Source: Sinorhizobium terangae (GTDB taxonomy: Bacteria; Pseudomonadota; Alphaproteobacteria; Rhizobiales; Rhizobiaceae). Taken from it: a stretch of 64,000 nucleotides of DNA. The stretch is from contig NZ_CP121659.1 in NCBI RefSeq assembly GCF_029714365.1, positions 1,240,001 through 1,304,000 on the forward strand, in the 5' to 3' direction. Shown piece by piece: positions 473-36,796 of the stretch (the first letter of the stretch is position 1; every line of letters starts with the position of its first letter). Made by a program: the position numbers and the translations under genes. The notes under the pieces are model-generated. The model ran no database searches. It was not told the DNA's origin and saw nothing but the letters and a program-made list of their open reading frames with translations.

Positions 473-495
473 AAAACGGCGCCATCAGGCGCCGT
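473..495 (-). terminator. Rho-independent terminator of the first DUF1127 gene
   Basis: Perfect 8-bp stem (476-483 pairs with 488-495) with a 4-nt loop. On the minus strand it is followed by a short T run. It lies 27 bp past the stop codon of the DUF1127 gene at 522-665. Confidence 0.7.
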
Positions 496-521
496 CTTGG
501 ATGTTTGGATGTTCGTTCCGA

Positions 522-665
522 TTAGCGGAAGGAACGGGCCGCAATGTTGCGGATATCGTAGCGGGTAATGCCGATATCGCTGAGCGCGTGGTTCGAGAGG
601 CTGCCGAGCTCGGCAACGGTGCGGCGATAGTTGATCCAGCTTTTTGCAATGCGAATCGGGTTCAT
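522..665 (-). CDS. DUF1127 small protein (47 aa), copy 1
   Basis: Short, basic, arginine-rich protein of the DUF1127 (YjiS-like) family. The 47-residue frame starts at ATG 665 behind a GAGG ribosome site. It carries the core pattern W-x-x-Y-R-R-T-x-x-E-L, then [16 protein letters not shown], the usual DUF1127 helix ending in a D-I-G-x-x-R-x-D-I signature. An upstream in-frame extension exists but has no ribosome site and would spoil the standard length. Family knowledge: DUF1127 proteins in Agrobacterium affect phosphate and carbon metabolism through protein contacts, and Rhodobacter CcaF1 binds RNA. A second copy lies 420 bp upstream on the same strand. Confidence 0.9.
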
Positions 666-1024
666 GGTCGTATCCTCAAGATCGGTTTGTCGCGACAGTG
701 ATTTGTCTGCGTCGTTGAGGTTCTTATACGCTTGTCTAATTGGAAGATGGAGTGCAAAGAAAATGCATCTGCTATGCGTTTGTGCAGTGCATCGCCGATT
801 TCGTGAGCACCGCACTCCCGCCGCTCGAAAACGCGTCAGAAGTTAACAGTGCCTAAATTCCACGGCTGCGCGTTAAACTCTTGGGGTTTTAAACAGTTTT
901 TCGTGCTGCGCCGGCACTGAAGAGCTTGCGAACCCGAGCAGTCGATGGGCGCTCGATTGGGCGTCGAGAACCGCTTTCGCACGTGCGAAGCGGGCGCTTT
1001 CACGCGATGGTCGAGGACGAAAGA
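666..1024. other. Intergenic region between the two DUF1127 genes
   Basis: About 360 bp between the start of DUF1127 copy 1 and the terminator of copy 2. It must hold the leftward promoter of copy 1, since a terminator separates the two genes, but I could not identify -35/-10 boxes with the right spacing. No convincing coding frame or RNA was seen. Confidence 0.5.
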
Positions 1025-1055
1025 AAAAACGCCCTCCGGGTGGCCGGAGGGCGTT
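1025..1055 (-). terminator. Rho-independent terminator of the second DUF1127 gene
   Basis: Perfect 11-bp G+C-rich stem (1030-1040 with 1045-1055) with a 4-nt loop, followed on the minus strand by six T residues. It starts 28 bp past the stop codon of the DUF1127 gene at 1084-1227. Confidence 0.9.
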
Positions 1056-1083
1056 TCAGAAATGGGGTATTCGGTGCTCGGGC

Positions 1084-1227
1084 TTACTTGACGGCCTGGC
1101 GCGCGACATAAGGAATGTCGCTGCGGCCGATGCCGAGGTCGTTCAGCTCACGGTCGCTCATGCGGCCGAGTTCGTTGCAGGTCTGACGATACTTGCGCCA
1201 GTTGTTGAAAGAACGTGCGAGGTCCAT
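1084..1227 (-). CDS. DUF1127 small protein (47 aa), copy 2
   Basis: Second DUF1127 (YjiS-like) micro-protein, 47 residues from ATG 1227. It has the family pattern NWRKYRQTCNELGRMSDRELND followed by LGIGRSDIPYVAR in shortened form. It is clearly paralogous to the copy at 522-665 (same length, same W/YR/EL/D-LGI-RxDI spacing) but differs at most other positions. It has its own strong terminator. It lies directly downstream, on the same strand, of two sRNAs with CCUCCUCCC loops, an arrangement that recalls the DUF1127 protein CcaF1 and the CcsR sRNAs of Rhodobacter. A longer in-frame extension runs into the sRNA region and is not credible as protein. Confidence 0.9.
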   Translation of the reverse strand: MDLARSFNNWRKYRQTCNELGRMSDRELNDLGIGRSDIPYVARQAVK

Positions 1228-1466
1228 GATCCTATCCTTTCTAGGGTCGTTTGCCAGCGCTCTATCTCTCTTGCTGGCCGTCATCTGATGGTCTGAAATA
1301 TAATCGATTTGATCGGCAGATACAGAGACAATGCTGCATCGCACCCATGCGCCGATTGCAATCCTTCGTCTGGCCGTTGACTCGCCCCTGACGGCAACCG
1401 TGGGCTCGGCGTCGCCGACCTGCATCGACGGTCGCAGGTGCATGAATCCAACAGCGAAAAGAGGCG

Positions 1467-1600
1467 CAAAAAGCAACGCCCGCTGGGGGAGGAGGTCCAG
1501 CGGGCGTTGCTTTGTTCTGATTGGCAACCGGGAGGAGGAGTGTCGCCAATCCGTATCGGGGTGCGCTGGGAGGAGGAGTGCGCCGCCCCGATCGATGGCT
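1467..1600 (-). ncRNA. Anti-Shine-Dalgarno sRNA, alpha-r14/NfeR1 type, copy A
   Basis: Three successive hairpins on the minus strand, each showing CUCCUCCC in its loop. The 5' hairpin is at about 1555-1592. The middle one has stem 1519-1525 with 1545-1551. The 3' one is a perfect 16-bp stem (1471-1486 with 1497-1512) followed by a T run, so it serves as the terminator. Three CCUCCUCCC-loop hairpins describe the rhizobial alpha-r14 family (NfeR1 in S. meliloti), which pairs with ribosome-binding sites of many mRNAs, and also the wider 'cuckoo' RNA group. The 3' end is well defined; the 5' end near 1600 is an estimate. Confidence 0.85.
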
Positions 1601-1755
1601 GTAAGGTAAGCTGCGATACGCGTTTTGTGTAGAGGCGCGCACCGAATGGCACCCATGCATAATGCGCATGGCTTGAGAGCGCAATGCCGTGGAACTGCTT
1701 CAATATTGTGCAAATGGGCTCTCGCGAGCTAATGGTCAGGCGGAGCGGCAAACAG

Positions 1756-1878
1756 CAAAACGCCCGCTGGGGGAGGAGGTCCAGCGGGCGTCATGTAAGT
1801 GATTGGCAACCGGGAGGAGGAGTGTTGCCAATCTTATCGGAGAAGCGTTGGGAGGAGGAGTACGCTGCTCCGAATTCG
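1756..1878 (-). ncRNA. Anti-Shine-Dalgarno sRNA, alpha-r14/NfeR1 type, copy B
   Basis: Tandem homologue of the sRNA at 1467-1600 with the same three-hairpin plan. The 5' hairpin is at about 1837-1873. The middle hairpin has a 10-bp stem (1801-1810 with 1824-1833), and the terminator hairpin an 11-bp stem (1760-1770 with 1781-1791) and a short T run at 1757-1760. All three loops show CUCCUCCC on the minus strand. The loops and the inner stem of the terminator match copy A exactly, while the 5' hairpin stems have diverged with compensatory changes. The 5' end is estimated. Confidence 0.85.
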
Positions 1879-2193
1879 TCGAGCTTTCGCTCGGGTCTTT
1901 CCGGGGTTTCCGGAGGCGGGCGACCAGTCCCGCCAGCGTCCGTTCGGCTCGTCACCTCTCGTCGCCTTTGATGATTTGAATATAGCCATCTTAAATCGAT
2001 TTGTGCAGTGCAATATCCGCATGGAAGATATGCGGCGCGCGCAATCCCGCTACGGGGCCCCCGACAAGTGAAATCATCTCGCGGCAGGGAAATAGCTCCG
2101 TTGATTTTTCTCGCCATTTTCACCGATTTGCTGTTCTCTAAAACCGGCCGGGCGTCGGGAAGGCGTCGCCGAGAGTACGGATCCGGAGGTGGG
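1879..2193. other. Intergenic region, divergent promoters
   Basis: About 315 bp between the leftward sRNA copy B and the rightward DUF2157 gene. It must contain their promoters. A possible leftward -10 (CTATAT) ends at 1979 with an imperfect -35 (CTGCAC) 17 bp away. It would start transcription about 90 bases before the first sRNA hairpin, so the link to the sRNA is uncertain. Confidence 0.35.
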
Positions 2194-19064: not shown

Positions 19065-19140
19065 TGGCACGCCCAACGGGACTCGAACCCGTGTTTCCGC
19101 CGTGAAAGGGCGGCGTCCTAGACCGCTAGACGATGGGCGC
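19065..19140 (-). tRNA. tRNA-Glu (UUC), copy 1
   Basis: 76 nt including encoded CCA. The acceptor GCGCCCA pairs with TGGGCGT, and the anticodon stem-loop CCGCC-CTTTCAC-GGCGG gives anticodon UUC. The sequence is identical over the tRNA to the copies at 36471 and 36721. Confidence 0.97.
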
Positions 19141-19155
19141 CCAAGACGACGTGGC

Positions 19156-19184
19156 TTATAGTAAGCGCCTCGGATTCCCGCAAG
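19156..19184 (-). promoter_or_regulatory. Promoter of tRNA-Glu copy 1
   Basis: On the minus strand a -35 box CTTGCG (19179-19184) and a -10 box CTATAA (19156-19161) are separated by exactly 17 bp. The same boxes and spacing precede the tRNA-Glu(UUC) copies at 36.5 and 36.7 kb. Confidence 0.8.
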
Positions 19185-19294
19185 TGATGAAGAGCCATTA
19201 AATTCAAATTTTTGCGGAAAACTTGTAGTGGTTCGACGTCATCAAGCCGCGAGCGTTCGTCGCGCCATGTTTAGCGTCAAGAGCGAGATGGGAT

Positions 19295-19369
19295 TGGTAC
19301 GCCCAACGGGACTCGAACCCGTGTTACCGCCGTGAGAGGGCGGCGTCCTGACCGCTAGACGATGGGCGC
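19295..19369 (-). tRNA. tRNA-Glu (CUC)
   Basis: 75 nt including CCA. The acceptor GCGCCCA pairs with TGGGCGT, and the anticodon stem-loop CCGCC-CTCTCAC-GGCGG gives anticodon CUC. It is close in sequence to the UUC copies, so it probably arose by duplication. Confidence 0.95.
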
Positions 19370-36470: not shown

Positions 36471-36546
36471 TGGCACGCCCAACGGGACTCGAACCCGTGT
36501 TTCCGCCGTGAAAGGGCGGCGTCCTAGACCGCTAGACGATGGGCGC
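36471..36546 (-). tRNA. tRNA-Glu (UUC), copy 2
   Basis: 76 nt including CCA, identical to copy 1 over the tRNA (acceptor GCGCCCA/TGGGCGT, anticodon UUC). The next 12 bp upstream on the minus strand are also conserved. Confidence 0.97.
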
Positions 36547-36561
36547 CCAAGACGAGCTGGC

Positions 36562-36590
36562 TTATAGAGAAGCCTTTTCATTCCCGCAAG
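36562..36590 (-). promoter_or_regulatory. Promoter of tRNA-Glu copy 2
   Basis: -35 CTTGCG at 36585-36590 and -10 CTATAA at 36562-36567, 17 bp apart, matching copies 1 and 3. Confidence 0.8.
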
Positions 36591-36720
36591 GGATCAGTTG
36601 TCGCCAAATCGATTTTACTTGCGGAAAAGCTCTTGAAAGTTTCCTGTCTTCTTCGGGCAAGCATAAAGGCGATGCGAAATCGCAACACCAAAGTATCCAG
36701 CAACTATATCGAAGAAGGAA

Positions 36721-36796
36721 TGGCACGCCCAACGGGACTCGAACCCGTGTTTCCGCCGTGAAAGGGCGGCGTCCTAGACCGCTAGACGATGGGCGC
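36721..36796 (-). tRNA. tRNA-Glu (UUC), copy 3
   Basis: 76 nt including CCA, identical to copies 1 and 2 over the tRNA. It lies 174 bp from copy 2, so the pair is a tandem duplication. Confidence 0.97.

Follow-up and report, generated by a model that had tools for sequence, protein, structure and literature searches.

The closest described relative of the locus treated here is ccaF1-CcsR1-4 of Rhodobacter sphaeroides, in which a small DUF1127 gene and several small RNAs (sRNAs) with CCUCCUCCC loops lie on one strand. That set has one promoter, the protein gene comes first, and the sRNAs are cut from the common transcript (PMC10253847, PMC12501420; published work is cited throughout from the portions of the texts that were available). 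The association of a short DUF1127 protein with CcsR-like sRNAs carries the published label CIN1 locus (PMC10253847). Here we describe a 64,000-nt stretch of Sinorhizobium terangae DNA (contig NZ_CP121659.1, positions 1,240,001 to 1,304,000; hereafter the window), in which two sRNAs of the ar14 family (sRNA 1 and sRNA 2) and two DUF1127 genes (DUF1127-A and DUF1127-B) lie beside trmFO. Having a small DUF1127 gene adjacent to a cuckoo-type sRNA, the layout is that of a CIN1 locus; it differs from the Rhodobacter locus in that the sRNAs come first and each unit seemingly has its own promoter and end, and in that the proteins are 47 aa long, compared with 71 aa for CcaF1. We consider it probable that the window holds the Rhizobiaceae form of the CIN1 module, a broken operon whose units retained their operators and whose sRNAs and proteins form parallel arms.

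Two further systems resemble parts of this locus. NfeR1 of Sinorhizobium meliloti (Smr14C2, alpha-r14) belongs to the same Rfam family as the window sRNAs. It is activated by LsrB and repressed by NtrC, through sites at -72 to -60 and -116 to -101, respectively (PMC10746234). The NfeR1 loops silence mRNAs, many predicted targets being transporters, and of six NfeR1-family copies in S. meliloti only one was reliably detected by northern blot (PMC7143759). This literature differs in scope, in that DUF1127 occurs zero times in the main texts of PMC10746234 and PMC7143759. The second system is the VtlR/LsrB regulon of Brucella and Agrobacterium, which includes an AbcR sRNA and small DUF1127 genes, and which shares with our genome a box before DUF1127 genes and a LysR gene beside AbcR. 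Targets of VtlR are three DUF1127 genes that it activates in Brucella melitensis (PMC12595884) and, in Agrobacterium tumefaciens, the atu1667 promoter, to which it binds (PMC7486931); the Brucella orthologues of atu1667 are among the VtlR-activated genes. The VtlR box GCAT-N3-TG-N3-T was confirmed in Brucella abortus and hypothesised in A. tumefaciens (PMC7486931). Unlike the window sRNAs as we read them, ar14 sRNAs are not named as VtlR targets in the available portions of PMC7486931 and PMC12595884. As to the proteins, small DUF1127 proteins of A. tumefaciens bind the kinase PhoR, and an S. meliloti DUF1127 protein and CcaF1 each complement the A. tumefaciens triple mutant (PMC12501420). The tetracycline-attenuated S. 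meliloti gene duf1127-1 was set aside as a counterpart of the genes studied here; it is equated with a large A. tumefaciens DUF1127 gene (PMC12218461).

Identity of the sRNAs and the DUF1127 proteins

An earlier note on this DNA had described two three-hairpin sRNAs sharing a loop motif and two DUF1127 micro-protein genes, and had proposed a covariance search; both descriptions hold. The ar14 model (RF02344; gathering score 58.8) matched sRNA 1 with an E value of 8e-22 and sRNA 2 with 2.3e-18 (bit scores in Table 1). Each sRNA consists of three hairpins, and all six loops carry CCUCCUCCC. Both are more stable than any of 200 shuffled sequences (z-scores of -8.6 and -7.5). Among 21 aligned sequences, 18 of the 21 predicted pairs were kept at least once by two-sided changes, in a consensus that spans hairpins 2 and 3; hairpin 1 is known from single folds. 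The two proteins score above the Pfam gathering cut-off of 23.3 for PF06568, and both are arginine-rich and basic (pI 9.6 and 11.3). A search of NCBIfam returned no family for either.

On the minus strand the order is sRNA 1, sRNA 2, DUF1127-A, DUF1127-B and then trmFO. The sRNAs had been placed directly upstream of the DUF1127 genes on the same strand. The strand is right, but 243 nt with a box of their own separate sRNA 2 from the DUF1127-A start codon. A terminator for every unit had also been claimed. Hairpins with T tracts follow both DUF1127 genes and fold better than 200 of 200 shuffles; the scan found four terminator-like sites versus 2.0 (SD 1.7) in shuffled sequence, a count that is weak evidence by itself. 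The scanner accepts loops of 3 to 8 nt, and the 10-nt sRNA loops fall outside its range. By eye, sRNA 2 ends in a strong hairpin and a T5 run. The strong hairpin that ends sRNA 1 is followed by a broken T tract (GTTTTGCTGTTT), and read-through from sRNA 1 into sRNA 2 may therefore be possible.

Linkage of ar14 sRNAs and DUF1127 genes in Hyphomicrobiales

We searched 199 genomes of the order, our own included. With stricter filters, an ar14 match at E 0.001 was present in 63 and a match above the Rfam cut-off in 29; DUF1127 was present in 170. Linkage was counted on the 72 matches at or above the Rfam cut-off, which cover 29 of the 63 genomes, and a neighbour missing on a short contig was scored as none. 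Forty-eight of the 72 lay within 1 kb of a DUF1127 gene, where about 0.15 is expected from DUF1127 counts and genome sizes; all 48 pairs share a strand. At least one pair occurs in 24 of the 29 genomes, over five family codes. The linkage is far above chance and supports the earlier proposal of a linked sRNA and small-protein module. It is in itself already known, as the CIN1 locus, and is not a discovery of this work. In 44 of these 48 pairs, DUF1127 is followed by the sRNA. The reverse order is found in four pairs, all from the family of the window: two belong to our own genome, and two genomes of another genus contribute one pair each.

Other arrangements of the two partners were seen in passing. 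A second DUF1127-sRNA pair with no trmFO within 9 kb lies at L020:4473-4598 and L021:4537-4664 (same family, other genus); here DUF1127 comes first, there are four loops, and about 250 nt separate the gene from the sRNA match. Long cuckoo arrays occur at L032:3939-4221, with eight consecutive CCTCCTCCC loops behind a DUF1127 gene, and at L052:3901-4589, with loop clusters of 1, 4 and 3.

Gene order at trmFO loci

The gene order was compared at the best 80 of at least 571 confirmed trmFO loci, a set in which Rhizobiaceae are over-represented. The species are related and hence not independent, and the expected numbers given in this work ignore kinship. A 21-sequence model served to mark sRNAs and a 30-sequence profile to mark DUF1127 genes; gaps are measured between the ends of model matches, not between codons. 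The sRNA comes first in 42 of the 80 loci, the window being the 43rd. With S for an sRNA, s for a weak sRNA match and D for DUF1127, the layouts are SDD (18), SSDD (12), SDsD (8), SSDsD (3) and DsD (1, counted along). DUF1127 comes first in 23 loci (DDSS, 9; DS, 6; DDSSS, 4; DSSS, 2; DSDS, 1; DSS, 1). The remaining loci hold no sRNA: DD (7) and D (5), 12 loci of which one, L073, is cut by a contig edge, and neither partner (3). The order in the window is the reverse of the majority order of the linked pairs, at the same trmFO-flanking place and with longer gaps. At DUF1127-first loci, the sRNA follows DUF1127 after 27 to 77 nt (median 32), and two DUF1127 genes are 78 to 87 nt apart. At sRNA-first loci, the corresponding gaps are 186 to 468 nt (sRNA to DUF1127, median 254) and 276 to 1134 nt. 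The short gaps resemble those of a single transcript, and the long ones would leave room for promoters.

In the trmFO tree, a branch with SH-aLRT support of 95 separates the 23 DUF1127-first loci from the rest, and the order need therefore have changed only once; each loss of sRNAs from the locus would be a change on top of this. This quick tree carries single support values; in it L119, basal on the DUF1127-first side, sits on a long branch, and the row of the window fills 30% of the columns. The published Rhodobacter arrangement is DUF1127 first (PMC12501420), which suggests that this is the older order. Independently of the order, the trmFO of L117, a record titled as a Xylophilus metagenome-assembled genome, groups with Brucella/Ochrobactrum, and its label or bin is probably wrong.

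Behind DUF1127-A, a weak sRNA match was found in 12 of the 80 loci, the strongest at 42.3 bits (E 2e-8) and the weakest at 20.4 bits (E 0.009). L015 and L016, from the other genus, still show a single hairpin in this place, with CTCCTCCC or TCCTCCC. The final hairpin of these relics aligns with the DUF1127-A terminator of the window. Because of the relics, the layout of the window looks like that of an operon broken into single genes. The earlier note had invoked the co-transcription model of Rhodobacter, in which the protein gene lies upstream of the sRNAs. With the genes in the opposite order and the unit seemingly broken up, that model does not transfer to the window. Fifteen trmFO loci lack an sRNA; the genomes of 14 of them (all but L073) were searched, and each holds an ar14 match above the cut-off elsewhere. 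The eight best of these matches were checked for a neighbour, and in these eight no DUF1127 gene lies within 1.5 kb.

Upstream elements common to the units

Motif finding in 56 non-redundant of the 58 sRNA upstream regions of sRNA-first loci returned TATTGCACTGCACAA, with a log-likelihood ratio of 378.6 versus 51 to 57 in three shuffled sets run with 60 starts rather than 150. At 10 bits or more, the motif stands before 38 of the 58 sRNAs; since these were the training set, only the DUF1127 counts are a test. It precedes 35 of the 86 DUF1127 genes of sRNA-first loci (0.8 expected; 32 in sense) and 18 of the 23 DUF1127-first operons (0.4 expected; 15 in sense). These and the following promoter counts omit the 12 relic sRNAs and, at DUF1127-first loci, take the first DUF1127 gene.

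The VtlR box divides the units. It is found in sense before 12 of 16 second-position sRNAs (0.18 expected), 40 of 43 first DUF1127 genes (0.70 expected), 17 of 23 DUF1127-first operons (0.39 expected) and all seven first DUF1127 genes of sRNA-less DD loci (0.12 expected). A second element, TGCANTGCA, has the complementary distribution: it precedes 26 of 42 first-position sRNAs and 35 of 43 second DUF1127 genes, and none of the 16 second-position sRNAs or the 43 first DUF1127 genes. Operons thus appear often to carry both elements, which the single units seem to divide between them. A single box for all four promoters was rejected for this reason. Two groups fit a simple split poorly. Before the last or single DUF1127 gene of sRNA-less loci, the VtlR box is found in 0 of 11 in sense and 5 of 11 in antisense and TGCANTGCA in 7 of 11; before DUF1127-first operons, TGCANTGCA is found in 12 of 23 in sense and 19 of 23 on either strand. 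Thirty sRNA copies unlinked to DUF1127 were also taken, and L046, with no exact loop motif, was dropped. Of the remaining 29, 11 have the VtlR box in sense, 13 have it on either strand, and 15 have either element.

In the window, the VtlR box is present before sRNA 2 and DUF1127-A and absent in that form before sRNA 1 and DUF1127-B. As the box matches 17 times in the window, single matches are weak, and the weight lies in the counts across loci. Over both strands of the 64 kb, the LsrB pattern TGCA-N6-GCAT has five matches, of which three fall upstream of units of this locus. With base 1596 as the start, the LsrB and NtrC patterns before sRNA 2 lie at almost the distances published for NfeR1 (Table 1); the NtrC pattern, with 56 matches in the window, is weak alone. 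The units share LsrB/VtlR-type upstream elements, which leaves the earlier claim of separate control only half right: the units look separately transcribed, yet their upstream elements are in common.

VtlR-like sites and a candidate regulator

In our own genome, the looser pattern GCATNGCWGNNATGC with at most one mismatch matched 58 times on one strand and 66 times on the other, versus 15 and 15 for a reversed control. Among the matches listed, seven sites are exact, one of them 47 nt upstream of an AbcR sRNA, and sites with one mismatch lie before DUF1127-A, sRNA 1 and two unlinked ar14 copies. Next to AbcR are a thioredoxin-reductase-like frame (identified by eye) and then a LysR-type gene (Pfam), which seems to be the gene order described for vtlR/lsrB (PMC7486931). 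The six other exact sites (C1:179600, 884616, 2580660, 2660146 and 3079427; C3:314966) are candidates for further regulon members.

Coordinates and neighbouring genes

All -10-like sequences named in Table 1 were picked by eye. The gene at the start of the window belongs to the Pfam family GIDA; we take it to be trmFO, as a length of about 480 residues fits TrmFO. Among the best 80 loci, the trmFO fragment nearest to it comes from Sinorhizobium sp. 6-70 (97% identity). Beyond sRNA 1 lie DUF2157, GDYXXLXY and trigger factor genes, divergent on the plus strand. Elsewhere in the window, four tRNA-Glu genes form two pairs within 18 kb (19065-19369, ttc and ctc; 36471-36796, ttc and ttc).

Table 1 Features of the sRNA and DUF1127 locus, in positions of the window
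Feature	Position	Strand	Basis or remark
trmFO (GIDA family, Pfam)	1-423	minus	window starts inside gene
Terminator of DUF1127-B	473..498	minus	fold and scan
DUF1127-B, 47 aa	522..665	minus	PF06568, 56 bits
Element CGATGCACTGCACAA before DUF1127-B, 9.1 bits (below the 10-bit counting line)	780..794	minus	-10-like GTATAAG 723-729
Terminator of DUF1127-A, aligning with last hairpin of relatives' sRNA relic	1026..1057	minus	fold, scan and alignment
DUF1127-A, 47 aa	1084..1227	minus	PF06568, 62.7 bits
VtlR box GCAT-N3-TG-N3-T before DUF1127-A	1338..1350	minus	-10-like TTATATT 1297-1303; one-mismatch site in own-genome scan
LsrB pattern TGCA-N6-GCAT before DUF1127-A	1347..1360	minus	pattern match
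sRNA 2, ar14 family, NfeR1-like by upstream patterns	1471..1596	minus	RF02344, 105.1 bits; fold; LsrB and NtrC pattern positions
VtlR box GCAT-N3-TG-N3-T before sRNA 2	1646..1658	minus	-10-like TACCTT 1603-1608, by eye against relatives
LsrB pattern TGCA-N6-GCAT before sRNA 2	1656..1669	plus	-73 to -60 from 1596
NtrC pattern TGC-N11-GCA before sRNA 2	1696..1712	minus	-116 to -100
sRNA 1, ar14 family, three CCUCCUCCC hairpins	1755..1878	minus	RF02344, 120.7 bits; fold
Element TATTGCACTGCACAA before sRNA 1, 29.1 bits	2001..2015	minus	15 nt upstream of -10-like CTATATT (1979-1985)
LsrB pattern TGCA-N6-GCAT before sRNA 1	2009..2022	plus	pattern match

Discussion

The identity and structure of the sRNAs and proteins, their linkage, the reversed order, the relic matches and the common upstream elements are features of the sequence itself. 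They are best explained, in our view, by an ancestral operon upstream of trmFO in which DUF1127 was followed by sRNAs. We infer that this operon was broken, in the lineage of the window, into the single units sRNA 1, sRNA 2, DUF1127-A and DUF1127-B. The sRNA once behind DUF1127-A would have decayed to a plain terminator, and other sRNA copies upstream would have gained or kept promoters of their own. Each unit would now be a separate transcript from its own promoter, with operator elements retained from the ancestral operon and read as a group. The group regulator would most likely be the LysR-type protein LsrB/VtlR, with NtrC acting also on sRNA 2. Once induced, the sRNAs would silence mRNAs, for example of transporters, through their anti-Shine–Dalgarno loops, and alongside them the DUF1127 proteins would act, most likely as a restraint on PhoR, the phosphate sensor kinase. 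The sRNAs and the proteins would then serve one and the same nutrient-stress response as parallel arms with a common regulator. For the actions of LsrB and NtrC on NfeR1 and of VtlR on DUF1127 genes, as for loop-mediated silencing and contact with PhoR, this reading draws on the literature on relatives.

Several observations weigh against this explanation. Twenty-four of the 72 ar14 matches have no DUF1127 gene within 1 kb, among them three of the five copies in our own genome, and some of the relic matches are close to the E 0.01 limit. A promoter consensus scan of the window returned one site versus 0.9 in shuffled sequence, which is the level of chance. The VtlR box precedes first-position sRNAs in 0 of 42 loci in sense and 4 of 42 in antisense, and second DUF1127 genes in 2 of 43 in sense and 20 of 43 in antisense. 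Since the box is absent or rare in sense before the units corresponding to sRNA 1 and DUF1127-B, the TGCANTGCA element may belong to another factor. The element of DUF1127-B in the window falls just short of the counting line, and 14 of the 29 unlinked sRNA copies have neither element. LsrB does not control AbcR sRNAs in S. meliloti under the conditions used (PMC7486931); this contrasts with an LsrB site at AbcR1 cited in PMC10746234. Regulation and expression in this organism are read from sequence patterns and from relatives, and the role of PhoR from work on A. tumefaciens and Escherichia coli.

The division of the two elements also admits, as a tentative alternative, two matched pairs with different inputs, sRNA 2 with DUF1127-A through the VtlR/LsrB box and sRNA 1 with DUF1127-B through the TGCACTGCACAA element. 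If so, each anti-Shine–Dalgarno RNA would always be made with its own small protein, though on separate transcripts.

A rather unlikely reading is that the adjoining ar14 sRNAs are bound and matured by the DUF1127 proteins, as CcsR1-4 are by CcaF1, and that this keeps the genes together. The strong linkage over five family codes and the basic, arginine-rich composition of both proteins fit such a role, and the ccaF1-CcsR transcript is processed by CcaF1 and RNase E (PMC10253847). However, each sRNA of the window appears to be transcribed separately and to have its own end, which would leave no protein-sRNA precursor to cut. DUF1127 also persists without an adjacent sRNA at 12 of the 80 trmFO loci and is present in far more genomes of the order than is any ar14 match (170 versus 63 of 199). 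Salmonella YjiS shows no evidence of RNA association in the available portions of PMC11707872, and the small A. tumefaciens proteins bind PhoR, as noted above. Action in trans stays compatible with all of this, as CcaF1 acts on CcsR in trans too (PMC10253847). Direct action of DUF1127 on the sRNAs may occur, yet it is a less likely reason for the genes to have stayed together here: the sRNAs seem no longer to be cut from a common transcript, and all 14 genomes searched among those with sRNA-less trmFO loci keep ar14 copies elsewhere, away from DUF1127 in the eight checked.

Still less probable is genomic hitch-hiking, in which unrelated small genes with no common function or control would have persisted next to trmFO in a stable position. 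In its favour, the flank of trmFO is conserved, and one or both partners have been lost there in some lineages. Against it, the two partners are also linked at loci that showed no trmFO within about 4 kb (L020, L021, L029 and L030), and the same elements precede both unlinked sRNA copies (15 of 29 have at least one of the two) and DUF1127 genes. That the sRNAs silence the adjoining DUF1127 mRNAs by covering their ribosome-binding sites, as adjacency and anti-Shine–Dalgarno loops might invite one to think, is very improbable and was rejected, as the predicted pairing of the loops with the two DUF1127 leaders is ordinary (-7.4 and -7.2 kcal/mol versus a mean of -8.5 over 63 start regions of long window frames, of which 60% and 62% pair at least equally well).

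A search by titles and the beginnings of abstracts found no paper on the switch of order or on operators common to ar14 and DUF1127, a weak negative since most subscription papers lie outside its scope. Part of this may already be contained in the 2015 cuckoo paper or in Eisfeld et al. 2021, which deals with sRNAs under LysR control in A. tumefaciens.

It is disputed whether the DUF1127 domain binds RNA or protein, a question called an "intriguing puzzle" in PMC12501420. In the window, seemingly separate genes with retained operators would allow the sRNA and protein arms to be removed singly, unlike in an operon. More widely, LsrB/VtlR may control a linked set of anti-Shine–Dalgarno sRNAs and DUF1127 proteins across Rhizobiaceae, which would join literatures that the texts cited here keep separate.

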